From Herbiconiux sp. A18JL235 (GTDB taxonomy: Bacteria > Actinomycetota > Actinomycetes > Actinomycetales > Microbacteriaceae), in assembly GCF_040939305.1 (NCBI RefSeq), contig NZ_CP162512.1, forward strand, positions 3,807-67,806: a stretch of 64,000 nt of DNA. The letters run 5' to 3'. This document shows, in pieces, positions 12,779 through 53,930 of this stretch. The stretch's first letter is position 1. The number at the start of each line of letters is the position of its first letter. The position numbers were made by a program, and so were the translations under genes. The notes beneath the pieces were generated by a model. It saw only the letters and a program-made list of their open reading frames with translations. It had not been told where the DNA came from and did not search any database.

Positions 12779-12902
12779 CCAAAGTTCATCGGCCGCCCTA
12801 TTGGGCACCACCACGCGGTGAGCCGGCGTTGCCAGAAGGCATGCGCCCTGCTCGCACCGCGTCCTGAGCGCGACTTCGCTGTCGCCGCTTTCTGAACTTT
12901 GG
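12779..12902 (+). promoter_or_regulatory. Long-range RNA pairing between leader 1 stop and acyltransferase RBS
   Basis: CCAAAGTTCA (12779-12788), beginning 2 bases after the leader stop codon, pairs perfectly over 10 bp with TGAACTTTGG (12893-12902), which ends 4 bases before the AAGGA ribosome-binding site of the acyltransferase. A ribosome at the leader stop would cover the 5' arm. Confidence 0.6.
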
Positions 12903-12917
12903 ATCGAAGGACTTTCC

Positions 12918-14057
12918 ATGCTTTCCGCGCGCGGCGCGCTGCCGCAACCACATCGTCAGCCACACCCCATCACTCCCCCGAACCACTCACGAATACCATC
13001 TCTTGACGGATTACGGGCGTTGGCCGTGCTCGTCGTATTTGTCGGGCACGGCCGCACCGACCAGGGCCAGTGGCCGGGGTATGCCGGCGTGACTGTCTTC
13101 TTCTTCCTCAGCGGTTTTCTCATCACCACGTTGCTCCGACGCGAGTTAGAGAACACGGGAACTGTCTCACTGAGACGGTTCTATTTGCGTCGCACGTTCC
13201 GCATCCTCCCGGCCACCTACTTCGCGATCGCGCTGTCTCTCGCCTTGGCTGCCATAGGCGCCGTCCCCTCGTCTGTGAGCGGGTGGGGCGTCCTGGCAGA
13301 AGTGCTCAACTACACGAACTATTACATCGTCGCGAACGGGTATCAGAGCCTTCCGCCTGAAACGAGTCAGATGTGGTCACTGGCCGTCGAGGAGCAGTAC
13401 TACCTCGTGGTCCCAGTGGCTCTACTGCTTGCATATCGGCTGGGAGCTCCACGCCGATGGGTGGGCTGGTCTCTTGTGACCCTGGCGCTTCTGACCGCGG
13501 TGTGGCGGATCAAACTCGGTATGAGCGGCGCAGGCTTCGATCGGCTCTACTTCTCGACCGACACGCGCATTGACAGCATCCTCTGGGGCGCAGCATTCGC
13601 GCTGTTACTGAATCCCGTGATGGGCGACGTCTCGCGGATCGGCCGACGAGCCCAACGGTGGATATCGCGGCACCTCGCCGGGATCGCGATCGGCGCTACG
13701 GCAACCTTCGTTGTCACTGCAGCGATCCCAATGCTCTCGTTTCGGCTGAGTATCGCTACCACCTTGCAGTGCATCAGCCTGGTCCCGATCTTCTGGTTCC
13801 TCATCACCCGACCGTCGAGTGCGATTGGGCGCTTCCTGAACAGCAGACCCCTTGTTCGCTTGGGCGTTCTCTCCTTCTCGTTCTACCTTCTCCACAAGAT
13901 GGTGCTAGCTGTCGTGACGCCCCTCTTCGACGCGCCCATTGTGACTGACGCGCTCTCCTTGGCGGGCTCGATCGCAGCCGCGCAACTGGTTTTCTGGGCC
14001 GTCGAGCGCCCCTTTACCCGACTCCGAGCCCGACTCGAGCGGAAATTCCTTCCGTAG
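12918..14057 (+). CDS. Acyltransferase family 3 membrane protein (copy 1)
   Basis: A 379-residue polytopic membrane acyltransferase of the OafA/NolL type, probably adding acyl groups to a cell-surface polymer. The N-terminal signature RIPSLDGLRALAVLVVFVGH (about 25-44) contains the catalytic His; FFFLSGFLITTLLRRE and the conserved SLAVEEQYYLVVP follow. About ten hydrophobic segments run to the C-terminus, ending in a basic tail. AAGGA precedes the ATG. It is closely similar throughout to the protein at 35621-36733; both follow an ISRT-tailed small membrane protein. The next gene is the CPH-type copper ATPase, so an acylated envelope may be part of copper tolerance, which is inference. Confidence 0.85.
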   Translation: MLSARGALPQPHRQPHPITPPNHSRIPSLDGLRALAVLVVFVGHGRTDQGQWPGYAGVTVFFFLSGFLITTLLRRELENTGTVSLRRFYLRRTFRILPATYFAIALSLALAAIGAVPSSVSGWGVLAEVLNYTNYYIVANGYQSLPPETSQMWSLAVEEQYYLVVPVALLLAYRLGAPRRWVGWSLVTLALLTAVWRIKLGMSGAGFDRLYFSTDTRIDSILWGAAFALLLNPVMGDVSRIGRRAQRWISRHLAGIAIGATATFVVTAAIPMLSFRLSIATTLQCISLVPIFWFLITRPSSAIGRFLNSRPLVRLGVLSFSFYLLHKMVLAVVTPLFDAPIVTDALSLAGSIAAAQLVFWAVERPFTRLRARLERKFLP

Positions 14058-14117
14058 ATGCGTCAGTGCACTGCACCTTGCGGGGAATAAGAAGAGCACC
14101 ATGACCCTTTTACCTAC

Positions 14118-14132
14118 TACCCCTAGGGGGTA
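14118..14132 (+). promoter_or_regulatory. CsoR-type copper operator upstream of copB
   Basis: TACCCCTAGGGGGTA is a G-tract pseudo-palindrome matching the known CsoR operator form, 26 bases before the copB start. CsoR itself is encoded downstream in the same direction, so feedback control is likely. Confidence 0.75.
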
Positions 14133-14158
14133 TATTGATTTGGGAACGAGGAGACGAC

Positions 14159-18149: not shown

Positions 18150-18508
18150 TAGGTTTGTCCTGGTCGTCGGGTGGGCCGCCCGCTGCGGCGGCGTCGAATG
18201 ATCGAGATGGCGATGGCGATGGCGACCGCTAGGACGGGAAGCGCGATCACGGTGATTGTCAGCCATGCGACCTCGCTTCCGTCCCCGTTGTGGCTTCCGG
18301 GGGCCGGTGTCGGGTCGTCCTGAGCCTGCTGGTAGCCGATCTCCACAACCTCTACCGCGACGTGGTGGCCGCTGTTGATCGTGGGAACGTGTGCCTCGGC
18401 GAGCTGCACGGGAAGGGTCGTGAGGAACACTGCGCCCGTCAACACGACCGCGGCGATGAGCGTCTTCATGCGCTGTCTCATCCGGCAACCGGGTCCGTGG
18501 GCGCTCAT
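18146..18508 (-). CDS. Secreted protein with C-terminal membrane anchor
   Basis: A 120-residue protein. An N-terminal signal segment (LIAAVVLTGAVFLTTLPVQL) is followed by AEAHVPTINSGHHVAVEV, so a mature N-terminus near a His is possible, as in CopC-type copper proteins; a C-terminal transmembrane helix (VAWLTITVIALPVLAVAIAI) and an Arg-rich tail follow. Not recognised as a named family. The start overlaps the M23 stop (ATGA) and its stop overlaps the lipoprotein start (TTGA), placing it firmly in the copper operon. A role in extracytoplasmic copper binding is conceivable from the His residues and context only. Confidence 0.6.
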   Translation of the reverse strand: MSAHGPGCRMRQRMKTLIAAVVLTGAVFLTTLPVQLAEAHVPTINSGHHVAVEVVEIGYQQAQDDPTPAPGSHNGDGSEVAWLTITVIALPVLAVAIAIAISIIRRRRSGRPTRRPGQTY

Positions 18509-19530
18509 GGCAGCACGTGGCTCGTCATCCACGGAAACGGGTCGATGGGCGTGCCGTCGAGATGGATTTCGAAATGCAGGTGCGCGCCCGTGCTGGTGCC
18601 GGTGTTGCCGACATTCCCGACTTGCTGGCCAACGGTGACGACTTGGCCTTCGGTGAGCTGCAGCGACCCTTCGAGCATGTGGCCGTAAACGCTCGTGATC
18701 CGCTGACCGTCGATGACGTGCTCGATCTCGGCGTAGACGCCGAGCCCTCCCCCATCTGTCGCTTGGGCGACGGTGACAACCCCATCGGCCACAACCTGGA
18801 TCGGTGTGCCCTGGCCGGGATTCATGTCCATGCCCTTGTGGTAGCTGGAGCAGCCCCCACACGGCGCGGAACGTGGCCCGAACCCGTCGCTGATCGGAAC
18901 CCCGGTGGTGAAGGGCCATTGGATCGGTGACAGCGGATTGTTGGTAAAGGTGTCGGCTGTGCGCGCGAATGCGTTGGAGGTGGCAGGGACGACGACGGGA
19001 GGCGGAGGCGGAGGCGCTTCTGTCACGGAGTATCCGTCTCGCAGCACAGATGCGATTGAGCCGGTGGCGACGAGCGTTTGAGTCACCGTGTCGTCAGCGG
19101 AGAACAGGAGAGCCCCGTCGCCGCTGGGTGCGGCTGCGGCGGGGATGGCGACGGTGACCGCGAGCAGACCGACGAAGGTCATTGCGATGGTCGCTTGGGT
19201 GCGGCGTAACCGGCCGGCCGGCCGGCGTCGGGAGACTCGTTCGAGTCCTGCTCCCCCAGCCGTGCGTACCTCCGGGGCGACGGCCGCGGCTGCGAGAGGC
19301 ACCGGCCGGAGCTCTGGCAGCACCGCCGCCGCGGGCAGCTCGTCAACGGCTGGGGTAGTCGGCGGTTGGTCGCGGAGGTCACGCCGTCGGACGGGGGGCT
19401 GGTCTGACGGAGCGGGTTCGCGGAGGTCACGGCGCCGCGGGAACGGGGTGGCGGGCTGTTCCGACGGGATGCGGAGTGACCGGCGGCTGGGATATGCGGA
19501 GGGTGAGGGAGTGGGGGTAGTCAAGAGCAC
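18505..19530 (-). CDS. M23 family metallopeptidase, membrane-anchored (copy 1)
   Basis: A 341-residue protein. Residues 1-110 form a Pro/Arg-rich cytoplasmic region with repeated RRRDLRE-like motifs; a transmembrane helix (TIAMTFVGLLAVTVAIPAAA) follows near 114-134, then the extracytoplasmic LytM domain with the zinc ligands HKGMDM and HLHFEIH (about 235-320). M23 enzymes cleave cell-wall cross-links. Start: GTG; SD is weak. It is closely related to the protein at 52581-53747 in the catalytic half (shared DTFTNNP and ISDGFGPR). The upstream small ISRT-tailed gene ends 105 bases before this start, and complementary RNA lies between them. Part of the copper-operon set. Confidence 0.85.
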   Translation of the reverse strand: MLLTTPTPSPSAYPSRRSLRIPSEQPATPFPRRRDLREPAPSDQPPVRRRDLRDQPPTTPAVDELPAAAVLPELRPVPLAAAAVAPEVRTAGGAGLERVSRRRPAGRLRRTQATIAMTFVGLLAVTVAIPAAAAPSGDGALLFSADDTVTQTLVATGSIASVLRDGYSVTEAPPPPPPVVVPATSNAFARTADTFTNNPLSPIQWPFTTGVPISDGFGPRSAPCGGCSSYHKGMDMNPGQGTPIQVVADGVVTVAQATDGGGLGVYAEIEHVIDGQRITSVYGHMLEGSLQLTEGQVVTVGQQVGNVGNTGTSTGAHLHFEIHLDGTPIDPFPWMTSHVLP

Positions 19531-19536
19531 TTTTCG

Positions 19537-19650
19537 ATCAGGAGAAGAAGACGCAAGCGCCTCCGCCGCCGCGCGGGCGTGCGGAATCGCTGAGGAACCT
19601 CCTGGCGGAGGTTGAAGCCGGAAGAGTCCTGAGTTCTAAGTTCTGCTGAT
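19537..19650 (-). promoter_or_regulatory. RNA pairing between leader 2 tail and M23 copy 1 RBS region
   Basis: On the transcript, AUCAGCAGAA (positions 19650-19641, within the Ile-Ser-Arg-Thr codons of leader 2) can pair with UUCUCCUGAU (19546-19537, ending 6 bases before the M23 start): 9 of 10 base pairs. Weaker than the other copies but in the equivalent place. Confidence 0.4.
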
Positions 19651-20109
19651 GCCGAGCGCGAGCGGGGGTAGCGTCATCGTCCATGGGATCGCGGCCGATG
19701 GCGGAGCGATCACCCATTGGCCCCGCTCCATGAGTCGCGCGAACCAGCCGGGCTTGTGCAGGCCGATCACGACGACGAGCATCAGCAGCAGCAAGGCGGC
19801 GCCGGCTGAGGGCGTCACGGTCCCGAGCGCGCATCCCTCGCAGTTCGCGAGCAGCCCAGCGGCGCCCGCCGGGGACTCCTCATCCGGCGCGGTGAGCGTC
19901 ACCTCTTGCGAGACGACGTGGTCATGTTCACCGGAGATGCCCTGGTGTGAATGGCTGACCGTCGAGTGCAGCGTCAATAGCCCGAGGAAGGCGCCGACGA
20001 CCGCTACGAGGATGAGGAGGAACCGGCCCATGATGGAGAACAGCGAGGGGGCGGGTGTCGCGGAGTGCGTGATCTCGTCCCTTCTCGTGGTTCGGCGGGG
20101 CCATGACAT
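19636..20109 (-). CDS. ISRT-tailed small membrane protein, copy 2
   Basis: A 157-residue protein from the listed start; an in-frame ATG at 20031 would give 131 residues beginning just before the first transmembrane helix. Two helices are predicted (GRFLLILVAVVGAFLGLLTL; GAALLLLMLVVVIGLH). Between them is a His-rich loop (HSTVSHSHQG, GEHDH) and CEGCAL. It ends LALGISRT. The listed ATG lies within a CCCTAGGG site (20108-20124), fitting a leaderless copper-controlled mRNA if real. It lies between the DUF305 gene upstream and M23 copy 1 downstream. Confidence 0.6.
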   Translation of the reverse strand: MSWPRRTTRRDEITHSATPAPSLFSIMGRFLLILVAVVGAFLGLLTLHSTVSHSHQGISGEHDHVVSQEVTLTAPDEESPAGAAGLLANCEGCALGTVTPSAGAALLLLMLVVVIGLHKPGWFARLMERGQWVIAPPSAAIPWTMTLPPLALGISRT

Positions 20110-20224: not shown

Positions 20225-20827
20225 CTACTGGGAGTCGAGCATCGACTGCATTTCGTTGATCTCGGCGGTCTGATCGGTGACAATCTTCTTGGCGAGTGTT
20301 ACGGCGTCGGCATTTTGACCGGCGTCGACTTCGGTCTGAGCCATCTCGATCGCGCCCTGGTGGTGCATGATCATCTGCTCGAGGAAAAGCTTTCCGGCGT
20401 CAGCTCCAGAGGCCTTCTCGAGGGCGGCCATATCGCCTTCGCTCATCATCCCGTCGCTGCCGTGATCCATCCCCGACATGCTGTCGGCGGATGCACCCCA
20501 AGTGGTCAGCCACTCAGTCATAGTGTCGATCTCAGGCTGTTGGGCCGCTTTGATCTTCTCGGCCAGCGCCGTGGTGTCGGGATCGACGTCGGATTTGGCC
20601 AGGAGCGTGTCGGACATCTCGATTGCCTGCTCATGGTGAGCGATCATCATCTGGGCGAACGTTACGTCCTGGTCATTGAACGAGCCTGTTTCGGCAGCCG
20701 CCGAGCTGGTGGCAGATGATCCACCGTGGTCCATTCCGGACATGCCTCCGGAACCGGAACAGCCGGCGAGGGTGAGAGCGGCGGCGAGCGTGCCAGCGAT
20801 GACGAAGGTGGTGCGCATGCGAAGCAT
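20225..20827 (-). CDS. DUF305 lipoprotein
   Basis: A 200-residue secreted protein. Lipoprotein signal: LTLAGCSGS (Cys near 22). A Gly/Met/His-rich linker (GGMSGMDHGG) precedes the DUF305 domain, whose duplicated motif is visible as FAQMMIAHHEQAIEMS and LFLEQMIMHHQGAIEM; the HH-x-x-A-I-E-M signatures are diagnostic. A second Met/His-rich insert (SMSGMDHGSDGMMSEGDM) suggests copper binding. DUF305 is common in copper operons; its function is unproven. It lies in the minus-strand operon between leader 3 and leader 2. Its ribosome-binding region can pair with the end of leader 3. Confidence 0.85.
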   Translation of the reverse strand: MLRMRTTFVIAGTLAAALTLAGCSGSGGMSGMDHGGSSATSSAAAETGSFNDQDVTFAQMMIAHHEQAIEMSDTLLAKSDVDPDTTALAEKIKAAQQPEIDTMTEWLTTWGASADSMSGMDHGSDGMMSEGDMAALEKASGADAGKLFLEQMIMHHQGAIEMAQTEVDAGQNADAVTLAKKIVTDQTAEINEMQSMLDSQ

Positions 20828-20831
20828 GAAA

Positions 20832-20925
20832 GTGATCCAATCTATTCGAGTAAGTGATTCGGTGCAGTGCGCGGCGTCGCGAAGGCGAGCGCCCCAGCAG
20901 GAATCAGGTTCGACTGATGGATAAC
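20832..20925 (-). promoter_or_regulatory. RNA pairing between leader 3 tail and DUF305 RBS region
   Basis: The transcript of the last codons of leader 3 (20925-20910: GUUAUCCAUCAGUCGA) pairs with 20849-20832, which includes GGAU before the DUF305 start. I count 14 pairs (GU, AUCCA, UC, A, U, CGA) with two mismatches and two bulges. The 5' arm ends 3 bases before the stop codon. Confidence 0.45.
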
Positions 20926-21386
20926 TTCGTCAGGTCAGGGGGATCTCGGAAATCAGACGTCCCGGCGGCTGGAATGGCGCGGCGGTTGATGATGAGCTGT
21001 CGGATCACCGAAGTCGTCGCGCTGTCGCGTATAAGCAGCGTGAGCGTCACCAGGCCACCGAGGAGCAGTGCAAGTACGCAGACCATCCCGACCATGTCGT
21101 GAGCGGGCGAGCACTCTCCCGAGCAGACACCCTCGCTCGCCGATGCCGATGCCGACGCCGACGCTGCGTCGTGGGCCATGACGTGAGAATTTGCTCCGGG
21201 TTCAGCCTCGTGATGGGCCGTCGTCATGGCGACCGCTGAGGGCTCGCCGTGGCCGGAGGGGGTTGATGACATGGTGTGCATCGCGAGAAGCCCCACGATC
21301 ACCGCGACAACCACGCCGATCGCGAAAAGGCTCCTGTGGATGATCTCCGAGCGTGACGGGAGGTCGCGAATCCCTTCAGTAGTCAT
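20904..21386 (-). CDS. ISRT-tailed small membrane protein, copy 3 (leader of DUF305)
   Basis: A 160-residue protein. Two transmembrane segments (FAIGVVVAVIVGLLAMHTM, residues ~22-40; MVGMVCVLALLLGGLVTLTL, ~97-116) flank a His/Ser/Ala-rich loop (GHGEPSAVAMTTAHHE; GVCSGECSPAHDM). It ends KLSISRT. The two Cys and several His between the helices could bind copper. The ATG has GGGGAGAA in front; I chose it over a start 27 bases upstream. It starts 38 bases after copA stops, in the same operon. The RNA of its last codons is complementary to the DUF305 ribosome-binding region. Confidence 0.65.
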   Translation of the reverse strand: MTTEGIRDLPSRSEIIHRSLFAIGVVVAVIVGLLAMHTMSSTPSGHGEPSAVAMTTAHHEAEPGANSHVMAHDAASASASASASEGVCSGECSPAHDMVGMVCVLALLLGGLVTLTLLIRDSATTSVIRQLIINRRAIPAAGTSDFRDPPDLTKLSISRT

Positions 21387-34985: not shown

Positions 34986-35208
34986 GAATGTCCTTGGGTT
35001 CCTCTTCGGCGCTTGGCACCGAATCGCCTTCCCGGTCTTGATTCGTTCACCAGCCGAGAGGCGAGAGGAATGTCTTGGCCGGGTCCGCCTGCCTCGGGTG
35101 TACGGCGGATTCTTCGACGGTACGCGACGATGCAGCGCATGTCGAGTACATCCAAACATTTACTAACAGATGGATAACGGGCGGCGGACGCTCTGTGGCC
35201 AGTGAGGG

Positions 35209-36740: not shown

Positions 36741-36867
36741 CCTAGAACAATCGCCCGGCGCTGGACGCGCGAGGGGGCAAAGTGGTGACCGCTCAAACGG
36801 TGCGAGCGCACGCGTCCGGCAGCAGGAAGTCAGGCGGGATGGCTCCGCGGACTCACCGGGTTCTAGG
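36741..36867 (-). promoter_or_regulatory. RNA pairing between leader 4 stop and acyltransferase RBS
   Basis: CCUAGAAC (36867-36860, containing the UAG stop of leader 4) pairs perfectly with GUUCUAGG (36748-36741), which includes the start of the AGGA ribosome-binding site. The palindromic CUAG core makes part of this trivial, but the 8 bp are complete. Confidence 0.45.
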
Positions 36868-42137: not shown

Positions 42138-42203
42138 GATTCTGCTTTCCGATGCGGTGATGTGATGGCGCGCGAAAGCGCTCAGGGCATGGAAGACGGA
42201 ATC
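42138..42203 (-). promoter_or_regulatory. RNA pairing between leader 5 stop and M23 copy 2 RBS
   Basis: Transcript bases 42203-42188 (beginning at the last base of the UAG stop) pair with 42154-42138, which run up to the ATG and include the GGAAAG ribosome-binding site. I count 14 pairs over 16 bases (one G-U), with two mismatches and one bulge. This is the tightest spacing of the seven. Confidence 0.55.
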
Positions 42204-42586
42204 TAGATGCGGAGGGGGCCGGCTGACTGGAGCGCGGAAAGCGCCGGTAGGCGAAGGGTTACCGCTGCCGGCGGAGCATTTGCCCGTGAGGGCGGACCGA
42301 AGGCCGTGGATGCGCGACGTGCTTGAGCCGTCACCAAGACGACAGAGCCGATAGCCGCGACGCAGATCATGGCGGCGCCGAGGCACTCGGCCACGCCGCC
42401 GCCGTCATCTGGCGTGTGGACGGTGACGTTCGAGTCGAGAACGACGATGGCGGCGGCCGCCGCGTCGGTGTCGTGGTTCGTGGAAGCCGCGTGCAGAACG
42501 GTGGTCGTCACGGCGGCCACGCAGATCAGGAGGGCCAGAAATGCGACGCGGAGCAGTCGGGCCAGTGCGCGGGGGCTCAACTGCAT
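42203..42586 (-). CDS. ISRT-type small membrane protein, copy 5 (leader of M23 copy 2)
   Basis: A 127-residue protein with two transmembrane segments (RVAFLALLICVAAVTTTVLH and ECLGAAMICVAAIGSVVLVT) flanking HAASTNHDTD and VTVHTPDDGGG. Ends SALQSAGPLRI: a degenerate form of the tail (-L-R-I instead of -S-R-T). Cys residues lie inside the two helices. It starts with ATG at the listed base. The stop is 65 bases from the M23 start and complementary RNA joins them. Confidence 0.6.
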   Translation of the reverse strand: MQLSPRALARLLRVAFLALLICVAAVTTTVLHAASTNHDTDAAAAAIVVLDSNVTVHTPDDGGGVAECLGAAMICVAAIGSVVLVTAQARRASTAFGPPSRANAPPAAVTLRLPALSALQSAGPLRI

Positions 42587-42929: not shown

Positions 42930-43292
42930 TCACCGGCGCCGCCGGTGAGGGGGTGGTTCGCTGGTGTCGATCACTCGGAACACCACACCGGTAGCGATGA
43001 ACACCGCGGACCCGATGAGCACGAGTACCTGCCACAGCTCCTCCTCGAATCCGAAGGGCCAGGCGGGATTCCAGATCACCGCCAGGGGTACCATCGGCAG
43101 TCCCCACCACCACTTTCTGTGCTGGATGGCGATGACGACGACGATCAATGCCAGGATGCTCACCGCATAGCGCGCATACAGGTAGAAGTCGGTGTGGATG
43201 ATACCGATGGTCGCTAGGAGCACGATCGCGCCGAGGACCGCGGGGAGCATGCCCGGGCGGATGTATCGGGTTCGCGTTGCCCGGGCGGTCAC
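42930..43292 (-). CDS. DUF6804-like membrane protein
   Basis: A 120-residue protein with four hydrophobic segments (LPAVLGAIVLLATIGIIH, YAVSILALIVVVIAIQ, LPMVPLAVIWNPAWPFGF, and a C-terminal one). The WNP-x-P segment is typical of DUF6804. Function not known. Its start overlaps the copC stop (ATGA), so it is the last gene of the leader 6-67 aa-copD/ctaG-ctaG-copC operon. Confidence 0.65.
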   Translation of the reverse strand: MTARATRTRYIRPGMLPAVLGAIVLLATIGIIHTDFYLYARYAVSILALIVVVIAIQHRKWWWGLPMVPLAVIWNPAWPFGFEEELWQVLVLIGSAVFIATGVVFRVIDTSEPPPHRRRR

Positions 43293-43921
43293 GATGCTGA
43301 GTCCTGAGAGTTGGCGCGCCGCTTGGCACGGGTTGAGGCGATGATCGCGATGACCACGATGAGAATGACGACGCCGATGCCGCCGATGAGCGCGATGGGG
43401 AACAACGAATCGTAAGCGTCTCCGCTAGAGACGGCTGTCGGGGTGGGTGTAGGAGTTTCGGTGCTCGCGGTGGCGGGTGCGGTCGCCGTCGGGGTGGGCG
43501 TCGGTGTCGCGGTGGGTGTGGGTGTGGGTTCGACGGTGTAGCTGAACGCATATTGGCCCGAGATGGGGTGGCCGTCGGCTGAAACGGTCTGCCAGAGCAC
43601 CTGGTAGCTGCCGGCTGTCGTGGGTGAGACGGCTTTGGTGAGCGTGCTGGCGTCGATGGTGACGTCGCCGGTCGAGATGTCCGTTCCTGCCGGATCGATG
43701 ACGGCGATGGCGATGCCCGTGTCGAAGCCGGCGAGCGGTTCTTCGTTGAAGGTGAGTTGCACCTGCGTGAGCGGGGTGCTGATGACCTCATCGGCGGCGG
43801 GGGTGGATGACGCGAGAGCGTCATGGGCGTTGGCGGCAGGGGCTGCGGTGAAAAGCATCGCCGTGGCGGCGAGGGTGGCGATGGCGCCGGCGAGTGCGCG
43901 GCGGCGGAGGGTGTTCGTCAT
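43289..43921 (-). CDS. copC: CopC copper resistance protein with C-terminal anchor
   Basis: A 210-residue secreted protein. After the signal (GAIATLAATAMLFTAAPAAN) the mature protein would start AHDALASSTPA, placing His at the N-terminus as in copper-binding CopC. The beta-barrel includes VSADGHPISGQYAFSY. A Pro/Thr-rich linker leads to a C-terminal transmembrane helix (LIGGIGVVILIVVIAIIAST). CopC probably hands Cu to CopD. ATGA overlaps with the ctaG upstream and the DUF6804 gene downstream. Confidence 0.85.
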   Translation of the reverse strand: MTNTLRRRALAGAIATLAATAMLFTAAPAANAHDALASSTPAADEVISTPLTQVQLTFNEEPLAGFDTGIAIAVIDPAGTDISTGDVTIDASTLTKAVSPTTAGSYQVLWQTVSADGHPISGQYAFSYTVEPTPTPTATPTPTPTATAPATASTETPTPTPTAVSSGDAYDSLFPIALIGGIGVVILIVVIAIIASTRAKRRANSQDSAS

Positions 43922-44886
43922 GGTGCTTCTTTCGTGTCTCGGGTGTTGAGGCGGTGGAGGTAGTCGTTGTAGGCATCGAGGTCGGCGTCGCCGTGTTTGT
44001 CGTGGCGACGGTCGGCGGCGCGGGCTCGGCGGGTGTCATCGCGGTGCCATCTGGACAGGAGCACGAGCACGATGATCAGGGTGGGTAGCTCCCCGTAGGA
44101 CCAGGCGAGGGCGCCGGCGACGAGTTGGTCTTGCAGGGGGTCGATGCCCCAGCTCGCAGGTGGGGAAGCGAAATAGGCGATGAGTGGCACCGAGGCGAGC
44201 ATGATGATGACGCCGAAGAAGGCGTGCAGGGGCATCTCGGCGAAAACGTCGAGGAGGCGTCCGAGATGGGATTGTCGTGCGGGGAGCGGGTCGGCGGAGA
44301 TCAAGGGGATGGTGAAGAGAATGCCGCTGGCAAGGAACAGCAGCTCGAGCCCGATGTGACCGGTCCAGCTTCCGAGGAGGGCGTTGGCGATGCCGCTGAG
44401 GTACAGGCCGTAGAAGGTGAACAGGAACAGGGGGATCATGACTGCTGGGTGCAACAGCAGTTTCGCGGCACGGGACCGGAGCCCGGTCAGTGCAGCGCGT
44501 TGCACAAGGATGCCGAGCCCCCGATGGGGCACTGCTTTCAGGAGCAGAGTTCCCGGTGAGCCGAGCACAAGCAGGGGCGGCACGGCCATCATCAGGGTGA
44601 GCTGCTGGAACATGAACACCGAGAACATGCGGTAGCCGTATCCTTCGAGGCCGGCACCCATCGTGATGATGAGGATGAGGCAGCCGGCGACGAAACAGAC
44701 GGTCCGCGTGACGGACCAGCGCCGACCCGTGAGCCAGAGGCGTGCAGCACCGATGCTGTAGGCGACGAGTAGAACGAGTGCGATGGCGGGGATGAGCGGG
44801 ATCGGTTGCAGGTTAGGGGCGAGGAACTGTGTGAGGTCCGGGGGTGCGGCCGGCACCCAGACCGGCCCTGTGGGGTCTCCGGTCAT
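43918..44886 (-). CDS. Cytochrome c oxidase assembly protein, CtaG (Caa3-type) family
   Basis: A 322-residue polytopic protein with about seven segments. Family features: FMFQQLTLMMAVPPLLVLGSPGTLLLK and IGLELLFLASGILFTIPLIS, DQLVAGALAWSYGELPTLII. CtaG_Caa3 proteins insert copper into oxidase or bind copper in the envelope. A second CtaG domain is fused to CopD immediately upstream. Cytoplasmic C-tail is charged (DDTRRARAADRRHDKH). Overlap ATGA with copD-ctaG and with copC. Confidence 0.8.
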   Translation of the reverse strand: MTGDPTGPVWVPAAPPDLTQFLAPNLQPIPLIPAIALVLLVAYSIGAARLWLTGRRWSVTRTVCFVAGCLILIITMGAGLEGYGYRMFSVFMFQQLTLMMAVPPLLVLGSPGTLLLKAVPHRGLGILVQRAALTGLRSRAAKLLLHPAVMIPLFLFTFYGLYLSGIANALLGSWTGHIGLELLFLASGILFTIPLISADPLPARQSHLGRLLDVFAEMPLHAFFGVIIMLASVPLIAYFASPPASWGIDPLQDQLVAGALAWSYGELPTLIIVLVLLSRWHRDDTRRARAADRRHDKHGDADLDAYNDYLHRLNTRDTKEAP

Positions 44887-46859
44887 TTCGGTGTTTTCCG
44901 CTCGCTCATCGCACGGAGCATCGCGTTGTACTCGTTCAGGTCACGGTCACCGGTTCGGTCGGCGTTCCTGTCGATTCGTTTGGTTTCTCGGGCGTCGGAG
45001 CGAGACCACAGGGTGACCATCGTGATGGCGAGGACCAGGGTGGGGATCTCTCCGATGCTCCATGCCACTCCCCCGGCCGCCTGCTGATCAGCGAGGGGAT
45101 CGACCGCCCATCCTTGGGTGATGACGCCGTACCAGTCCGGCAGGAACAGCTCAGTTGAGGTGATGATGCTGAGTCCGAAGAAGGCGTGTGATGCCATGAC
45201 AACGAGCAGGGTCACCAGCCGCATCGGGTAAGGGAGTCGGTAGGGAATCGGGTCGGTGCCGATCATGGAGAGAGCAAAGAGGTAACCGACGATCAGGAAG
45301 TGCGCGATCATCCACTGATGACCGATCGGATCGGCGAGCGACCAGCCGAACAGCGGCGAGTAGTAGAAGACCAGGGTCGATCCGACGAACAGCACGGCCA
45401 CCACCAGAGGGTGTGTGATCGCCGCGGTGACGCGTGATCGGGTGATGGCCATGATCCACTCCCGGGGCCCGCGGCTTCCGTCTTTTCGCGGATGAATCGC
45501 TCGGAGCGCCAGCGTGACGGGCGCGCCCAGCACGAGGAAGATCGGCACCATCATGCTGAGGGTCATGTGCTCGAGCATGTGTTGGCTGAAAAGGTACGTT
45601 CCATATACGGCGGGAGCGCCGTTGGTGACGTAGACGAGCACGGCGAGGCCGACGATCCAGCTCACAGTTCGCAGGATCGGCCAGGGGTCGCCGCGGTGGC
45701 GGAGCCGGCGCACGCCGGCGAGGTACAGAACGAGCGCGAACCCGGCGCCGATCGCCCAGATCGGGTCGATCGTCCAGCTGTCGAAGAAGCGTCCGAGCGA
45801 CAGGGGTGCCGGCAGCGATTGTCCGGTGAGGATTTGTGAGGGTGTCACGGCTAGGTCTTCACCGACCGGTGGCGCGGTGCGGGCGAGAACCACGGCCGCG
45901 CCCGAGGCGACTCCCATCAGGAGGGTTTCGGAAACGATCAGCCACGCGATGATCCGGCGTGCCCCGGCGGAGCTGTCGAATCGGCCGATCAGGTATCGGC
46001 GGTGCGCCGCTCCAGCCACACCGAGGGCGAGGAGAGCGACGATCTTGATCAGGAGGATCTGCCCGTAGCCTGTGCTCCAGAGTTGGTCGGGCTGGTCGAA
46101 TCGGAGCGCGGCCGAGATGGTGCCCGAGGCGGCGACGACGACGAAACAGATCAGCGCGATGGTGGAGTAGCGGCGCAGAAGCATGCCGGCGGGTCCGTGG
46201 TCGGTGCGGCTCATCAGTACCGCGGCGACGAGGAGTCCGCCGATCCAGGTGGCGGCGCCGCCGGCGTGCAGCCAGAGCGCGGTGGAGGCGGCGGAGTGGC
46301 TGCCAGCGCCCGCGGCATGTCCTTGCAGCGCGATCGGGATGAGGGTGGCGAATGCGGCGACGAGCGCCGTCGCCACGAGGGCGGGTGCGCGTACCGCGAA
46401 GCAGAACACCGCGAGGAACGCTGCGGCGATGGTGGTGGTCAGCCAGCCCTGCCCCAGGCTGACCTCGGTGAGGAATTGCCCGAAGCTGGCCGGGAAGATA
46501 TCGAATGGGACGGGGCCGGCGAGGGAGAAATACGCCAGCACGGATGTGCCGAAGGAGAGGGCGGCCCAGGCGCAGGCACCTCCGGCGGCGATGTCCATCG
46601 CGGTGCTGTATCCGGCCTTCTCTGTGGGCAGCGCGAAGACGGCGAGCACTAGTGCCCCGATGGTCAACGCGGAGGCGATGTTCACGAGACTCTTCGCGAT
46701 GGGCAGCCCGATGTCGACGACCGGGCCGGCGTCGAGCAAGAGTGTGGGCTGCTGCAGCCACGCTGAAACGGCCAGGCTTCCTCCGACCGCGACGGTGGCC
46801 AGGAGAAGTGCTGCTGGGGCGAAGATGATGAGCACTCGCCGGGTGGCCATGCTCGTCAT
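44883..46859 (-). CDS. CopD-CtaG fusion, copper import/assembly membrane protein
   Basis: A 658-residue polytopic protein. Residues ~1-330 form a CopD-like domain with eight or so helices (ALWLHAGGAATWIGGLLVAA; QILLIKIVALLALGVAGAAH). Residues ~370-640 form a CtaG_Caa3 domain (SQHMLEHMTLSMMVPIFLVL; IGHQWMIAHFLIVGYLFALS; DQQAAGGVAWSIGEIPTLVL). Fusions of this kind occur in actinobacteria. It probably moves Cu across the membrane and delivers it with CopC. The start overlaps the 67-residue gene stop (ATGA). A tandem second CtaG follows. Confidence 0.85.
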   Translation of the reverse strand: MTSMATRRVLIIFAPAALLLATVAVGGSLAVSAWLQQPTLLLDAGPVVDIGLPIAKSLVNIASALTIGALVLAVFALPTEKAGYSTAMDIAAGGACAWAALSFGTSVLAYFSLAGPVPFDIFPASFGQFLTEVSLGQGWLTTTIAAAFLAVFCFAVRAPALVATALVAAFATLIPIALQGHAAGAGSHSAASTALWLHAGGAATWIGGLLVAAVLMSRTDHGPAGMLLRRYSTIALICFVVVAASGTISAALRFDQPDQLWSTGYGQILLIKIVALLALGVAGAAHRRYLIGRFDSSAGARRIIAWLIVSETLLMGVASGAAVVLARTAPPVGEDLAVTPSQILTGQSLPAPLSLGRFFDSWTIDPIWAIGAGFALVLYLAGVRRLRHRGDPWPILRTVSWIVGLAVLVYVTNGAPAVYGTYLFSQHMLEHMTLSMMVPIFLVLGAPVTLALRAIHPRKDGSRGPREWIMAITRSRVTAAITHPLVVAVLFVGSTLVFYYSPLFGWSLADPIGHQWMIAHFLIVGYLFALSMIGTDPIPYRLPYPMRLVTLLVVMASHAFFGLSIITSTELFLPDWYGVITQGWAVDPLADQQAAGGVAWSIGEIPTLVLAITMVTLWSRSDARETKRIDRNADRTGDRDLNEYNAMLRAMSERKTPK

Positions 46860-47059
46860 GAGGGGTTCTCGTCGCGGTTCTCGGTGGCGAGGCGCGCGGC
46901 GAGCTTTTTCCGCTCTTCGGCTTCGATCTTGGCTCGCGCTTTGCGTTCATGGCTGTCGGCTTTGATGATCGACCGCACGATGATGACGAAGATTCCCCCG
47001 ACGAGAATCGTGGGGGTGACGGAATAGATGGCGTTGAACCAGTAATTGTCCATGCCCAT
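46856..47059 (-). CDS. Small single-helix membrane protein
   Basis: A 67-residue protein with one transmembrane segment (SVTPTILVGGIFVIIVRSII) and a long charged helix (KADSHERKARAKIEAEERKK). First gene after leader 6, ahead of copD-ctaG and overlapping it. Function unknown; small anchors of this type accompany oxidase genes. Its SD (AGGAG) is 7 bases before the start and is bordered by the leader 6 pairing. Confidence 0.55.
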   Translation of the reverse strand: MGMDNYWFNAIYSVTPTILVGGIFVIIVRSIIKADSHERKARAKIEAEERKKLAARLATENRDENPS

Positions 47060-47068
47060 AGGGCGCTC

Positions 47069-47159
47069 CTGATACGGACGGACGTCCCAGGCAGGCGCGT
47101 GGGAGTCAATGACGGACGGATGAGCGCGACGACGTCGCGGCGAAGTCCGTCGGTATCAG
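47069..47159 (-). promoter_or_regulatory. Strong RNA pairing between leader 6 stop and downstream RBS
   Basis: CUGAUACCGACGGAC (47159-47145; contains the UGA stop of leader 6) pairs with GUCCGUCCGUAUCAG (47083-47069), 14 of 15 bp, whose last two bases begin the AGGAG ribosome-binding site of the 67-residue gene. The loop holds 61 bases. The longest and clearest of the seven. Confidence 0.7.
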
Positions 47160-47617
47160 ATGCGGGAGATGCCTAGTAGAGCAAGGGTCGGCACGAGGGG
47201 GGTCACCGTTGAATGTGGGGCGCTCTCGGGGCGGGGTGGGGCCGGGCTTGGCAGCAGCCGGATGCCTCCGGCCCGCAGCAGTGCGAGGACTGCGAGGAGA
47301 CATCCGATTCCCAAGGCGAGGCAGAGTGCAGCGCAGCCGGCTACGAGCAGTGCCGCCGAGTTTCCGGAGGTGGAACTCGGTTCGTCGGGGACCGCGACGG
47401 TCTCGTGGTCCTGAGCGATGCTCGCGACCGAGGCCGACGATGCGGCCGGGGCGGTGGCGGAATCAGCGAGATGACCGAAGAGTAGAGCCAGCATCGCGGT
47501 GAGGATCGAGAACCCTGCGATCATTGCCCAGCGCGCCCGGCGGGGTGCGGTGCGGGTGCGGATCACGGGTGTGCTCTCGATGCGGGGGCGGATGGTGTCG
47601 TTCCAGGGTAGCAACAT
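47156..47617 (-). CDS. ISRT-type small membrane protein, copy 6 (leader of copD operon)
   Basis: A 153-residue protein with two transmembrane helices (RWAMIAGFSILTAMLALLFG; LLVAGCAALCLALGIGCLLA) and an exterior stretch AQDHETVAVPDEPSS between them, with three Cys in the second helix region. Ends LALLGISRI. It leads the operon that encodes CopD-CtaG, CtaG and CopC. Its stop codon lies within the pairing arm. The start chosen is ATG before MLLPWNDTIR; no strong SD precedes it. Divergent from lnt. Confidence 0.65.
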   Translation of the reverse strand: MLLPWNDTIRPRIESTPVIRTRTAPRRARWAMIAGFSILTAMLALLFGHLADSATAPAASSASVASIAQDHETVAVPDEPSSTSGNSAALLVAGCAALCLALGIGCLLAVLALLRAGGIRLLPSPAPPRPESAPHSTVTPLVPTLALLGISRI

Positions 47618-50519: not shown

Positions 50520-51248
50520 TCAAATCGGAGTCACGAATCCGCCGATCAGCCCTTGCAGCTGATAGATGATGGCGGTCCAGATGCCGCTCACCATCAAGGC
50601 GCCGAGGAGGATCAGCAACACTCCCCCGGCGATGTTCAGCGGCCGAATGAATCGGCGCAAGAGCATGGTGGCCCGCAGCGCGAAGGTGAAGCCCCACGCC
50701 AGCAGTAGAAATGGGATGCCGAGCCCGATGCAGTAGACGAACCCGAGAAGGGCACCCCGGCCGGCGGATCCGCTGCCGAGGCTGAGCGCTGAGATCGCCA
50801 CCAAGGTCGGGCCGAAGCAGGGTGTCCAGCCGAGCCCGAAGACGATCCCTAACAGCGGCGCTCCACCGATCCCGACAGCCGGCTTGACGGACAGACGTGC
50901 CGTGCGCTGCAGCCCGGGGATGAAGCCGATGAACACGATCCCCATCACGATGACGGCGACTCCGAGGATGCGCGTGATGACGTCCTGCCATTGCACCAGC
51001 CACGTCCCGAGAGCGCCGAACAGCACTCCGTAGGCGATGAAGACGACTGCGAAGCCGAGCACGAAGAGCGAGGCGCCGAGAAGCACTCTGCTGCGTGAGC
51101 GTGCGATGTCGGCCGATCCCCCGACGTAGGCGAGGTATCCCGGCACGAGGGGGAGCACACAGGGTGAGGCGAATGACACGAGGCCGGCGAGGAGGGCGAA
51201 CGGAATCGCGATCAGGAGCTGCCCGTTGAAGACGAGCTCGGGGATCAC
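50520..51248 (-). CDS. ccdA: CcdA-type thiol transmembrane electron carrier
   Basis: A 242-residue protein with six helices. Conserved Cys: SFASPCVLPLVPGY (first) and GWTPCFGPTL (second), the pair that carries electrons across the membrane. Supplies the downstream TlpA and probably the DsbA partner. The start overlaps the TlpA stop (ATGA). Last gene of leader 7-M23-dsbA-tlpA-ccdA. System II cytochrome c assembly uses CcdA with ResA/ResB, and a ResB lies in another operon here. Confidence 0.9.
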   Translation of the reverse strand: MIPELVFNGQLLIAIPFALLAGLVSFASPCVLPLVPGYLAYVGGSADIARSRSRVLLGASLFVLGFAVVFIAYGVLFGALGTWLVQWQDVITRILGVAVIVMGIVFIGFIPGLQRTARLSVKPAVGIGGAPLLGIVFGLGWTPCFGPTLVAISALSLGSGSAGRGALLGFVYCIGLGIPFLLLAWGFTFALRATMLLRRFIRPLNIAGGVLLILLGALMVSGIWTAIIYQLQGLIGGFVTPI

Positions 51249-51850
51249 GCCGGCTCCTCCAGCACCCGGTCGATGAGTGATTCCAGGATCGATACCTCGG
51301 TGACACGGCCGAGGATGCGAGCGGCCACTCGCCCTTGCCGGTCCAGCACCAAGGTGGTCGGCACGGCGTTCGGTGCGACCTGCCCGGCGAAGCTCAGCTG
51401 CACGCCGGCATCGGTGTCGATGATCGAGGGGTAGGTGACTCCGAAGGTGGTGGCGAACTCTTGTGCGGTCGCGGCCTGGTCCCTGACGTTGACGCCGAGG
51501 AATCCGACGTCTTGTGCGAGGTACTGCTCGTAGACCGCTTCGAGATCGGGCGCTTCCAGGCGGCAGGGTGCGCAGGCGGCGTACCAGAAGTTCACCACGA
51601 GCACTTCGCCGGCGTAATCCGATGAGCTAATTTGCTCCCCGTTCTCGCTGGTGCCGGCGAAGGTGATCGGGGCTGCTCGTTGGGCTTGGGTGAGCTCGAG
51701 GACCGATCCGTCGCCGGCGACGTAACCGCTGTCGGTGACACTGTTGCTCAGCTCGTCGGTCCCACCGGCCGCGCAGCCAGAGAGGACAAGAAGGAGGATG
51801 GCAGCGGCACCCGAAACCGCCGCCACCCGGCTATTGGGCGATCGCGGCAT
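51245..51850 (-). CDS. TlpA/ResA-like thiol-disulfide reductase, lipoprotein
   Basis: A 201-residue lipoprotein (lipobox LSGC near 27) with a thioredoxin fold: FWYAACAPCRLEAPDLEAVY includes the CAPC active site, and VPTTLVLDRQGRVAARILGR. Reduced by CcdA and reduces apocytochrome c or envelope proteins. Overlaps the ccdA start by 4 bases and the dsbA 3' end by 20 bases, so translation is coupled. The lipoprotein would be matured by LspA and Lnt. Confidence 0.85.
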   Translation of the reverse strand: MPRSPNSRVAAVSGAAAILLLVLSGCAAGGTDELSNSVTDSGYVAGDGSVLELTQAQRAAPITFAGTSENGEQISSSDYAGEVLVVNFWYAACAPCRLEAPDLEAVYEQYLAQDVGFLGVNVRDQAATAQEFATTFGVTYPSIIDTDAGVQLSFAGQVAPNAVPTTLVLDRQGRVAARILGRVTEVSILESLIDRVLEEPA

Positions 51851-52562
51851 CAAGTTGCGCCTTAAAGCCGTCGAGACTGTCGATGGTCATCTTCTCCCCG
51901 TTGAGGAAGAAGGTGGGGGTCGAATCGACACCGAGCGCGACGCCCTCGTCATAGTCCTGTAGAACGCGTTCGAGAGTGGCCGGGTCGGCGACAGCCGTGT
52001 CATAGGCCGCCATATCGAGGCCGAGTTGTTCCGCGTACGTGCGGAACAAGGGCGATAGATCCTCCTGGCTCTCTCCCCACGTGCTCTGCAGCTCGAACAT
52101 CATCTTGTACATCTCCTCGAACGCGCCCTGCTGTGACGCCGCCTCGACGGCCACTGCGGCGTTGCGGGAATTGAAGTGCGAGGGAATCGGGAAGTAGCGG
52201 GTGACAAAGGTGATTTGGCCTTTGTATTCCTCGCGGAACTGCTCCACATAGGGGTAGAACGCACCGCAGGCTTCGCATTCGAAGTCGAGGAACTCCACCA
52301 GGGTCACTTTCCCGTCGGGAGCTTCGTCGAGAACGTGACTGTTGTCCCGCACGACGGATGCGCTTTGGGCGGCTTCGGCGGTGCGGCTGACGCTCTGGGT
52401 GACGCTGACAGCGATGATCGAGATTCCGACGGCGATCACGGCGAAGACCGCGATGAGGACGACGATGACGAGGGTGCGTTTGGGCTTTCGCTGTGCAGTC
52501 AACCGTTCCGCCGTGGCGCGTGCGGCTTGGGTGCGAGCAGAGGGCGTTTTCTTCTGATTCAT
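51831..52562 (-). CDS. DsbA-like thiol oxidoreductase, membrane-anchored
   Basis: A 243-residue protein with an N-terminal basic cytoplasmic region (TAQRKPKRTL), one transmembrane helix (VIVVLIAVFAVIAVGISIIA), and a DsbA thioredoxin domain with active site CEAC in LDFECEACGAFYP (about 95-107) and a cis-Pro in VDSTPTFFLNGEK. Makes or shuffles disulfides in exported proteins. In the operon with M23 copy 3, TlpA and CcdA. Copper damages thiols in the envelope, so this set may protect exported proteins; that is inference. Confidence 0.85.
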   Translation of the reverse strand: MNQKKTPSARTQAARATAERLTAQRKPKRTLVIVVLIAVFAVIAVGISIIAVSVTQSVSRTAEAAQSASVVRDNSHVLDEAPDGKVTLVEFLDFECEACGAFYPYVEQFREEYKGQITFVTRYFPIPSHFNSRNAAVAVEAASQQGAFEEMYKMMFELQSTWGESQEDLSPLFRTYAEQLGLDMAAYDTAVADPATLERVLQDYDEGVALGVDSTPTFFLNGEKMTIDSLDGFKAQLDAAIAQ

Positions 52563-52580
52563 GGGTCCGGTTCCGTTTCG

Positions 52581-53747
52581 TCAGTTTCGTGCGGAGATCC
52601 AGGCGAATGGATCGACAGGGGTGTCTTCGACATGGATCTCGAGGTGCGTGTGCGCACCGGTGGAGACCCCGGTGTTACCGACGGCGCCGATCTGCTGACC
52701 GGCGACCACGAGCTGCCCTTCGGTCACTACCGGAGAGCCCGTGAGCATGTGGCCGTACCAGCTGCTGACGTTCACCCCGTCGATGACGTGGTCGATGACG
52801 ACGTACACGCCGAGGCCGCCCTGATCGGTTTCTTGGACCAGTCGGACGACTCCGGCGGCAACAGCGTTCACCGGCGTGCCCTGCCCCGGGGTGAAGTCGA
52901 CACCCTTGTGGTTGGAGCTCGCGCCAGCCGTTGGGGCGACACGAGGACCGAACCCGTCGCTGATGGGCACACCGACCGGGAATGGCCACTGAACGGCGCT
53001 GGTCGGGTTGTTGGTGAAGGTGTCAGCGGTGCGGTATCCGGCGACTGCAGCCTTCTTCTCAGCGATCACCTTCGCCTCGGTGACGGAATACCCGTCTCGG
53101 CTGATTGGCTGGCCAGGGGCCGCCGCGACGGTAAGGAGCTCCTGCGGTTGGAGTTCGGTAACTGATGGTGTGGAGGCGAAGGATAGGGACGAGTTAGTGG
53201 CCGAAAGCGAGGTGGCTGCGACCAGAAGTGCGGAGAACGACAGCGCCATCAAGGCGCGCACGCTGGGCGCTCGGCGCTTCGTGCGCGCTGGCACGGATGT
53301 CGCGGGCGACGGAGTCGCGAGAGGAACTTGGCGCCGAGGCGGTGCCGCGCGTCCTCGTGGTGCAACTGGTGTGATGTCGGCAACCCATGCGGTCGAGACG
53401 ATTGGAGCCGTGGCCAGAATCTCACCGGAAGTAACGACCTTAAGCGATTCTGATGCCGTGCTGCGGTCTGGGTCCTTGACGCTCCGCGCATCCTCGGGAT
53501 GGGCGCCTCGTTCCTCGGCTGGTGCCTCTCGGGGCAGCGAGCCTCGGCCCGTTGAGGCCGCTTGCTGTTCTTCTGCGATCCGCTCGAGTTGGCGTGTCTC
53601 ACGGCGCGTGAGAGCAACCGGAGGTCTCGGTTCGAGAGCGTGGCGGCCGCGCGCGTTCTGGGTTGGTGTTGAAAGTTCTGAGCGCTCTCGTTCACGCAGC
53701 GCTCGACGGCTGGGAAGAGCGCCGTCCTGGTCGGGTGTTTGCGTCAC
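52581..53747 (-). CDS. M23 family metallopeptidase, membrane-anchored (copy 3)
   Basis: A 388-residue protein. A long cytoplasmic N-terminus contains SRRALRERERSELS and LTRRETRQLERIAEEQ; a transmembrane helix (VRALMALSFSALLVAATSLS, ~190-210) and the LytM domain with HKGVDFTPG and HTHLEIHVEDTPVDP follow. Strongly similar to copy 1 in the external half. GTG start; GAAAG lies 9 bases upstream. Leader 7 ends 155 bases upstream, and complementary RNA joins the leader 3' coding region to this ribosome-binding region. Upstream of dsbA-tlpA-ccdA in the same operon. Confidence 0.85.
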   Translation of the reverse strand: MTQTPDQDGALPSRRALRERERSELSTPTQNARGRHALEPRPPVALTRRETRQLERIAEEQQAASTGRGSLPREAPAEERGAHPEDARSVKDPDRSTASESLKVVTSGEILATAPIVSTAWVADITPVAPRGRAAPPRRQVPLATPSPATSVPARTKRRAPSVRALMALSFSALLVAATSLSATNSSLSFASTPSVTELQPQELLTVAAAPGQPISRDGYSVTEAKVIAEKKAAVAGYRTADTFTNNPTSAVQWPFPVGVPISDGFGPRVAPTAGASSNHKGVDFTPGQGTPVNAVAAGVVRLVQETDQGGLGVYVVIDHVIDGVNVSSWYGHMLTGSPVVTEGQLVVAGQQIGAVGNTGVSTGAHTHLEIHVEDTPVDPFAWISARN

Positions 53748-53756
53748 AAATCGTGC

Positions 53757-53930
53757 TTTCGTACTGCACCAGCAACTCACGGACGGCCATATTCGAAGCG
53801 TAAAGGCGGGAATTAGCCCGTGCGTGACGTCGAATCCATCCGCAGAGCCGCTAGCGGCGGGTCTGGCGGTCGGTAGGACGCTCGGAGGCGTCCGCGGATC
53901 GCCTAGGTACGGATGACGGTCAGTGCGAAA
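53757..53930 (-). promoter_or_regulatory. RNA pairing between leader 7 tail and M23 copy 3 RBS region
   Basis: Transcript UUUCGCACUGACC (53930-53918, within the last ten codons of leader 7) pairs with GGUGCAGUACGAAA (53770-53757), which includes the GAAAG ribosome-binding site: 12 pairs with one mismatch and one bulge. Confidence 0.5.

Follow-up and report, generated by a model that had tools for sequence, protein, structure and literature searches.

Seven short leader genes before copper-associated operons of Herbiconiux sp. A18JL235 as candidate nascent-chain-controlled translational attenuators

The DNA analysed here makes up most of the 67.8-kb contig NZ_CP162512.1 of Herbiconiux sp. A18JL235 (positions 3807-67806, i.e., 64,000 nucleotides, called the window below, in whose own numbering all coordinates are given), and the subject of this work is a set of seven short leader genes, c1 to c7, which lie within 42 kb of it, each upstream of one copper-associated operon. 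The window encodes P-type ATPases, a metal-sensitive (CsoR-type) repressor, a heavy-metal-associated-domain protein, CopC/CopD/CtaG and CopM, and also ArsR-type regulators and an LMWPc/HTH protein. All seven leaders lie on the same strand as the next gene, with gaps of 65-155 nucleotides (CutF-like leaders are sought within 1,000 nucleotides), and carry at least one N-terminal hydrophobic helix by hydropathy. The first target genes encode two acyltransferases, three M23 peptidases, a CopM/DUF305 protein and one small membrane protein. The leader start codons are our own choice; with them, five of the seven leaders are shorter than 150 amino acids, c3 (160) and c6 (153) being longer. The start of the gene following c7 is uncertain, and GTG 53747 was used. 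The leaders and their targets are the following:

12381..12776, plus strand: leader c1, one N-terminal helix, His/Asp loop, tail ending in GPSLISLSISRT-stop (TAG)
12918..14057, plus strand: acyltransferase, target of c1, 66% identical to the product of the c4 target (Acyl_transf_3 match)
19636..20028, minus strand: leader c2, two helices, CxxC, tail PPLALGISRT-stop (TAG)
18505..19530, minus strand: M23 peptidase, target of c2, GTG start at 19530
20904..21386, minus strand: leader c3, DUF6153 (E 1.4e-11), two helices, CxxxC, tail RDPPDLTKLSISRT-stop (TGA)
20225..20827, minus strand: CopM/DUF305 lipoprotein, target of c3
36863..37264, minus strand: leader c4, one helix, tail PRTLEELSVTRT-stop (TAG)
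35621..36733, minus strand: acyltransferase (Acyl_transf_3), target of c4
42203..42586, minus strand: leader c5, two helices, tail QSAGPLRI-stop (TAG)
40863..42137, minus strand: M23 peptidase, target of c5, followed by a ResB gene (39220-40866)
47156..47617, minus strand: leader c6, two helices, CxxxC, tail VPTLALLGISRI-stop (TGA)
43289..47059, minus strand: target operon of c6, encoding a small membrane protein, a CopD-CtaG fusion, CtaG and CopC
53903..54340, minus strand: leader c7, DUF6153-like (E 5.5e-5, 24.4 bits, cut-off 27.7), two helices, tail APSLFALTVIRT-stop (TAG)
50520..53747, minus strand: target operon of c7, encoding an M23 peptidase, a DsbA-like protein, a redoxin and a DsbD-like protein

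Leader c3 passes the DUF6153 (PF19650) cut-off of 27.7 bits with 45.7 bits, c7 is borderline below it, and the other five do not match this family at E<=1. On a plasmid of Cnuibacter physcomitrellae, another member of the Microbacteriaceae, a block is 74% identical over 52% of the c2-c3 query, and one of its leaders is annotated as DUF6153, another as hypothetical. The two related acyltransferase genes (12918-14057 and 35621-36733) have separate leaders of differing sequence and separate RNA arms. An Lnt-like N-acyltransferase gene (47725-49215, plus strand) is divergent from leader c6. The NlpC/P60 gene at 34170-35159 (minus strand) has no leader of the c1-c7 type among the upstream frames viewed; the three M23 genes differ from it in having one.

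According to the sequence-only reading of this stretch, the end of every leader can pair with the ribosome-binding region of the next gene. We recovered such arms in all seven copies, in which the last codons of the leader, its stop codon or the first bases after it pair with the region before the next start:

12756..12796, plus strand: 5' arm of c1, 8 base pairs in the last codons and 10 just after the stop
12881..12910, plus strand: 3' arm of c1, covers GAAGG of the ribosome-binding site
19617..19655, minus strand: 5' arm of c2
19534..19567, minus strand: 3' arm of c2, upstream of GTG 19530
20890..20928, minus strand: 5' arm of c3, last codons, stop codon and bases after the stop
20829..20866, minus strand: 3' arm of c3, covers the GGAT ribosome-binding region
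36843..36867, minus strand: 5' arm of c4, CCTAGAAC across the stop
36741..36773, minus strand: 3' arm of c4, covers CTAGG of the ribosome-binding site
42182..42203, minus strand: 5' arm of c5, begins inside the stop codon
42138..42160, minus strand: 3' arm of c5, overlaps GGAAAG
47136..47164, minus strand: 5' arm of c6, 8+7 base pairs across and after the stop
47064..47099, minus strand: 3' arm of c6, covers CAGG of CAGGAG
53889..53928, minus strand: 5' arm of c7
53751..53785, minus strand: 3' arm of c7, helices of at least 4 base pairs end 19 bases before the start used

The individual pairings reported earlier were also found again. They comprise 10 perfect base pairs in c1 (12779-12788 with 12893-12902), next to which a second helix of 8 base pairs lies over the ribosome-binding site (12756-12763 with 12903-12910); 9 of 10 in c2 (AUCAG-c-AGAA with UUCU-c-CUGAU); 8 in c4 (CCUAGAAC with GUUCUAGG, 7 of which are kept by the energy model); 8+7 in 16 in c6; and interrupted pairings in c3, in c5, where the first pair lies inside the stop codon, and in c7. 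The 3' arm had been described as including or abutting the ribosome-binding site, which is true of most copies but not of c7, whose helices of at least 4 base pairs lie upstream of the site. In the lowest-energy spacer folds, the arms are paired in all seven copies, with 8-25 pairs against shuffled means of 3.7-7.1. The arm duplexes of c1 (p 0.010), c3 (0.046), c6 (0.004) and c7 (0.008) are better than those with shuffled 3' arms, c5 being the weakest copy by energy, and cognate arms pair better than re-paired arms among c1-c7 (exact p 0.011, 5040 permutations). Taken alone, without their relatives, the seven copies show a pairing that is only modestly beyond chance, and the case for all seven therefore rests on the relatives. 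Two other kinds of element were looked for and rejected: the leader strand carries no intrinsic terminator in the four spacers that were scanned (c2, c3, c6, c7), and there is no match at the gathering score of the Rfam 15 covariance models in the window.

The relatives come from searches with PF19650. Of 199 genomes belonging to the same family, 42 have a match at E<=0.01 (31 above the cut-off), and of 394 belonging to the same class, 58 have one at E<=1e-5; the majority of the genomes searched have no match. The family search gave 65 matches, of which 51 were read, leaving out c7 itself, eight rows with internal stops and five weak rows. Forty of these 51, c3 included, were kept for the pairing analysis, ten having no recognised lipoprotein start and one a gap of 330; their next gene was called CopM-like from its lipoprotein start, Pfam being run on a few only. 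In the class set, 60 of the 63 loci read were kept (L063 has no next gene, L088 a wrong end, and L104 lies at a contig end), including three loci of the window's own family (L100, L108, L120), and start codons were picked by score, without individual checks. The leaders of the family relatives precede genes for DUF305/CopM-type lipoproteins, DUF3105 proteins (L042, L050), M23 peptidases (L045, L049, L055, L060) and, in L057, a BNR-repeat lipoprotein, which is not DUF305 by Pfam. At L028 (1946-3295), a DUF6153-type leader with the tail LSVWRI precedes a multicopper oxidase gene, in the gene order of Rhodobacter cutF-cutO. At L029 (2215-3084), an Lgt gene, which like the Lnt-like gene next to c6 belongs to lipoprotein modification, lies downstream of a leader with a gap of 351, as the longest frame starting within 520 bases. 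The M23 genes of L191, L192 and L193 have an out-of-frame ATG overlapping their GTG start (ATGTG), which opens a three-codon frame in L191, and a competition between start sites is possible there. Several CopM spacers (e.g., L017, L025) hold, by eye, a separate short G+C-rich hairpin between the arms (CCGCC...GGCGG, GTCGA...TCGAC).

In these relatives, the arms are matched to each other. For the 40 family loci, grouped in 15 clusters, the summed cognate energy is -366, against -234 (standard deviation 17) for re-paired arms (p 5e-5, the floor of 20,000 re-pairings), and the own partner is the best in its row in 12 of the 15 clusters. For the 60 class loci, in 33 clusters, the corresponding values are -909 and -723 (standard deviation 22.5; p 5e-5, z -8.3). 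Cognate pairing is also favoured in 15 loci whose next gene is not CopM (c1, c2, c4, c5, c6 and ten relatives, in four groups; p 4e-5). When re-pairing is restricted to one group, the cognate combination ranks 2 of 120 for the acyltransferases and 1 of 6 for copD, both supportive; the ranks of M23a (15 of 24) and of M23b, the group of c5 (4 of 6 permutations), are uninformative. Leader c7 has a single close relative (L055), which stayed outside these tests.

The pairing is moreover specific to the leader end. When a segment of 36 bases is slid along the 29 family representatives, the mean energy of its pairing with the pre-start region peaks at -22.0 kcal/mol, centred 6 bases before the stop, versus about -10 to -13 elsewhere. 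The 33 class representatives peak at the same place (-25.3 kcal/mol versus about -16 to -21.5), and c1-c7 reach -22.9 kcal/mol at +6 to +12 (versus about -15.5 to -21). The profile is flat for 73 control gene pairs taken from the window and the fetched loci, which are not independent of each other (L052 among them is itself a leader, and two orthologous gene pairs account for 28). When the last ten codons are randomised synonymously, the pairing becomes weaker in the family set (p<0.05 in 15 of 29; Fisher 1e-14) and in the class set (8 of 33; Fisher 9e-7).

Covariation of the arms, proposed earlier as a check, was counted on two alignments that we chose from the 40 family loci, A3 (12 loci) and A2 (8 c3-type loci, including c3 itself as L016), and compensatory changes were found in both. 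The A3 structure contains 18 pairs in two helices, the first between the last codons and the segment before the ribosome-binding site, the second between the stop and post-stop bases and a GAATC-type segment; it is 84% paired, and slid registers are at most 45% paired. Two-sided changes affect 7 pairs and 13 cells, versus 3.3 and 4.1 on average after shuffling (1 and 0 of 500 shuffles reach the observed numbers), these counts not being independent events since A3 holds near relatives (L019/L022, L020/L027). In A2, two-sided changes affect 6 pairs, a number that none of 500 shuffles reaches; slid registers give at most 3. A direct reading shows that the c5 helix UUCCGUCUUCC x GGAAAGCAGAA is replaced by UUCUACUUUUC x GGAAAGUAGAA in L132, with a change from G-C to A-U; the c5/L132 group is not favoured by the energy test. 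These results support the view that the predicted helix between leader end and pre-start segment is under selection in the relatives, and an attenuator-type RNA switch is, as a model, well supported. The attenuator layout first proposed from the window itself has held, the pairing being conserved, compensated and placed at the leader stop.

We consider it likely that the seven leaders are nascent-chain-controlled translational attenuators of copper-envelope genes, acting in a CutF-like mode with another tail. Each leader would be a cis-acting, self-inserting sensor peptide, and the end of its mRNA would pair over a long range with the bases directly preceding the next start, in most copies over the ribosome-binding site, so that the next gene would be silent while no ribosome is near the leader end. 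The His/Cys loop, which would be extracytoplasmic, and the last helix would be delivered to the membrane while the nascent leader pauses in its last dozen codons, at a site that may be xPP and/or the LxxL[S/C/Q][I/V]xR[T/I]-stop tail. The paused ribosome would cover the 5' arm and free the binding site, and the copper-handling gene would then be translated. Copper bound to the loop would most likely prolong the pause, which is the sign of CutF, and envelope copper protection would be switched on locally, with one leader per operon. We infer both the arrest and the copper sensing. Copper had been suggested as a signal, and it stands as far as context goes: the genes around (CopM, CopD, CopC, P-type ATPases, a metal-sensing repressor, the multicopper oxidase of a relative) and the Cys/His loops point to it.

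The release of the site by a paused ribosome, also part of the earlier proposal, was approached with a footprint model. When the A site is placed anywhere over roughly the final ten codons (-30 to 0), the mean unpaired probability of the binding-site region rises from 0.42 to 0.52-0.59 in the 29 family loci and from 0.45 to 0.50-0.53 in the 33 class loci; a ribosome at least 48 bases upstream changes it by at most 0.02. The model thus agrees with the proposal in the relatives, but the mean rise is small in c1-c7 (0.38 to 0.40-0.49). The codons that directly follow the two prolines (PP) supply, in the relatives, the outer base pairs close to the ribosome-binding site, and a pause anywhere from PP to the stop could suffice.

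The RNA evidence (re-pairing, position, covariation) would fit equally well with a plain translational coupling, in which the hairpin hides the site and any ribosome translating the leader opens it briefly, with neither arrest nor copper sensing. Such a coupling would fix the ratio of two proteins, the leader being a working small membrane copper protein, and the gaps of 65-155 nucleotides in the window do not forbid coupling by unwinding. We regard it as unlikely, because it leaves unexplained the arrest published for a probable Streptomyces relative (PMC12992588) and two properties of the leader peptide. The first is a tail conserved to its last residues. Leaders c1 to c7 end in LSISRT, LGISRT, LSISRT, LSVTRT, AGPLRI, LGISRI and LTVIRT, respectively, and the consensus of 100 loci is P-P-[SD]-L-x-x-L-[SCQ]-[IVL]-x-R-x-stop, with Pro at -12 in 60 loci and at -11 in 86, Leu at -9 and -6 in 96 each, and Arg at -2 in 99, all six Arg codons being used. 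This penultimate Arg is present in all 51 family matches read, and the tails end mostly in R-T or R-I. PP is found within the last 15 residues of c2 and c3 only (2 of 7). A ribosome arrested at RAPP would leave the residues after PP untranslated; therefore, their conservation would suggest that they serve another function, at the stop codon or close to it. As judged from these sequences, the leader peptide is under selection besides the RNA.

The second property is a constant distance from the last helix to the stop. In the leaders with two clear helices (72 of 101, counted as such when the last helix ends 30-50 residues upstream of the stop), helix 2 ends 39.9 residues (standard deviation 2.5) before the stop, and the distance from helix 1 is more variable (114, standard deviation 13.1); identity is 12% in the linker and 49.5% in the tail. 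No leader with a second helix at another distance was lost by this definition, because all 29 excluded leaders are accounted for: 24 have one helix, 4 have helices at 37-41 and a further hydrophobic stretch, and 1 (L088) has a wrong end. The distance is 41 residues in c2, c3 and c5, 39 in c6 and 45 in c7. Membrane insertion as a part of the signal, another element of the earlier proposal, gains support from this near-constant spacing of about 40 residues; with a 19-residue helix, the pull would begin near the PP codons and would still act at the stop.

Among known systems, we file the leaders, from their sequences, as a putative variant of the copper-responsive nascent-chain leaders and not as members of CutF or SecM; on the evidence of their layout, they probably work like CutF. 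In Rhodobacter capsulatus (cutFOG), a pause prolonged by copper leads to the opening of a stem-loop that covers the cutO site (PMC9973294). CutF, too, is the small exported product of a leader that precedes a copper gene in cis, with a Cys metal-binding motif, a stall-like C-terminal end and a stem-loop over the next Shine-Dalgarno site (PMC9973294), to which corresponds here an arm pairing predicted in all seven copies and conserved in relatives; the L028 leader precedes a multicopper oxidase, as CutF does. CutF differs in being DUF2946-like with a proline-rich end (PMC9973294), whereas none of the seven leaders matches DUF2946, the Pfam family of CruR and CutF, at E<=1, and PP near the end is restricted to c2 and c3. 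The blocking arm here includes the leader's own last codons or stop, in the relatives and in part of the seven. In Streptomyces lividans, SLIV_16130 precedes a metal-related gene and arrests ribosomes via a RAPP/RGPP motif (PMC12992588). The spacing of its Cys48, His50, His58, His61 and Cys66 equals that of the DUF6153 leader L074 (C68, H70, H78, H81, C86; one of the 16 class leaders viewed), and it is therefore probably a DUF6153 protein. The main text of PMC12992588 gives no hits for secondary structure, stem-loop, Shine-Dalgarno or mRNA structure. RAPP is also present in class-level relatives (e.g., L061-L077), and RGPP in L078; the Microbacteriaceae-type leaders are mostly without RA before PP but keep the conserved tail from PP to the stop. 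The c3 tail carries RDPP, which is reported in arrest-permissive mutants of ApdA/ApdP (PMC12992588).

The comparison with SecM, MifM and erm leaders made in the sequence-only reading is fair for the mechanism, but closer precedents exist in CutF, CruR and the Streptomyces RAPP peptides. In SecM, MifM, VemP and ApdA/ApdP, a stalled leader ribosome also exposes the next start and the force on the nascent chain is the signal; they differ by their protein-localisation targets and by other arrest motifs. They are not known to have a metal loop. The SecM-type RAGP end is absent from the seven tails, and the next genes are not sec genes.

CruR of Bordetella pertussis is a copper-responsive leader as well, with a Cys motif and RAPP near its end; it differs as a DUF2946 protein acting by Rho-dependent termination, for which a lack of mRNA structure seems to matter, and as copper-downregulated (PMC9426467). 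A transcription control of this kind, in which the pause would govern Rho access in the spacer, the hairpin would be secondary and copper would relieve the arrest, has this published precedent and the RAPP of many class-level relatives in its favour. We find it quite improbable, as most genes recognised as targets are concerned with copper handling or the envelope, for which the opposite sign would be expected. The tail could also mark a short-lived copper protein for degradation or membrane quality control, with the RNA pairing as a separate matter: CutF is rapidly degraded (PMC9973294), and the tail is C-terminal, with its usual R-T or R-I end. This seems highly doubtful to us, given that the distance from tail to membrane helix is nearly fixed, at roughly one tunnel length, and that the RNA arm of the relatives includes the tail codons. 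That the complementarity arose by chance in G+C-rich DNA, to which the isolated arms of c2, c4 and c5 would conform, is rejected as hardly credible by the conservation seen in the re-pairing tests, the compensatory changes, the positional specificity and the flat control, the rejection being less firm for c5 and c7 taken singly.

Several results weigh against nascent-chain-controlled attenuation, most of them in the seven copies themselves. Folding against shuffled sequences, another check proposed with the sequence-only reading, succeeded for four of the seven spacers (p<=0.05 for c1, c2, c3 and c6), but the isolated arm duplexes of c2 (p 0.32), c4 (0.18) and c5 (0.49) are no better than with shuffled 3' arms. 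Synonymous randomisation has no significant effect in c1-c7 (p<0.05 in 1 of 7; Fisher 0.23), with the helices of c4-c7 placed at or after the leader stop, the footprint model gives no gain for c1 and c2, RAPP/RGPP occurs in none of the seven leaders, and c1 and c4, like 24 of the 101 relatives, are without a second helix. At single loci, the best segment lies no more than 24 bases from the stop in 21 of 29 family, 16 of 33 class and 1 of 7 window copies. The own partner is the best in its row in only 3 of the 33 class clusters (median rank 8), because the arms themselves are conserved. As for covariation, RNAalifold gave no consensus structure on one alignment of all 40 family loci (A1). The structures counted were written from the same sequences, which favours register 0; the A3 register shifted by -1 is not far behind (two-sided changes in 6 pairs and 10 cells, 16 extra types), and the 12 extra pair types of A3 are unremarkable (87 of 500 shuffles reach 12).

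A broader proposal, which we put forward at even weight, is that widespread actinobacterial copper leaders use a stop-proximal arrest module, PP-[SD]-L-x-x-L-[SCQ]-[IV]-x-R-[T/I/C]-stop, besides or instead of RAPP. The helix about 40 residues upstream would be its force gauge and the codons of the module part of the blocking arm, so that peptide, ruler and RNA switch would share the same 36 bases; the module would have been copied or recruited here to seven operons, whose first genes are of five kinds. In a literature search covering few subscription papers, the titles and abstract starts among the matches listed contain no report of the pairing or of a SISRT-type tail, and no paper on DUF6153 was found. 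The reading bears on a question left open in PMC12992588, namely, whether arrest peptides of this kind control the genes downstream of them and, if so, how. It would give DUF6153 a likely function, and would extend a mechanism found in single proteobacterial cases (CutF, CruR) to a regulon-scale device in actinobacteria, with named and testable parts: the RNA arms, the peptide tail and the membrane ruler.

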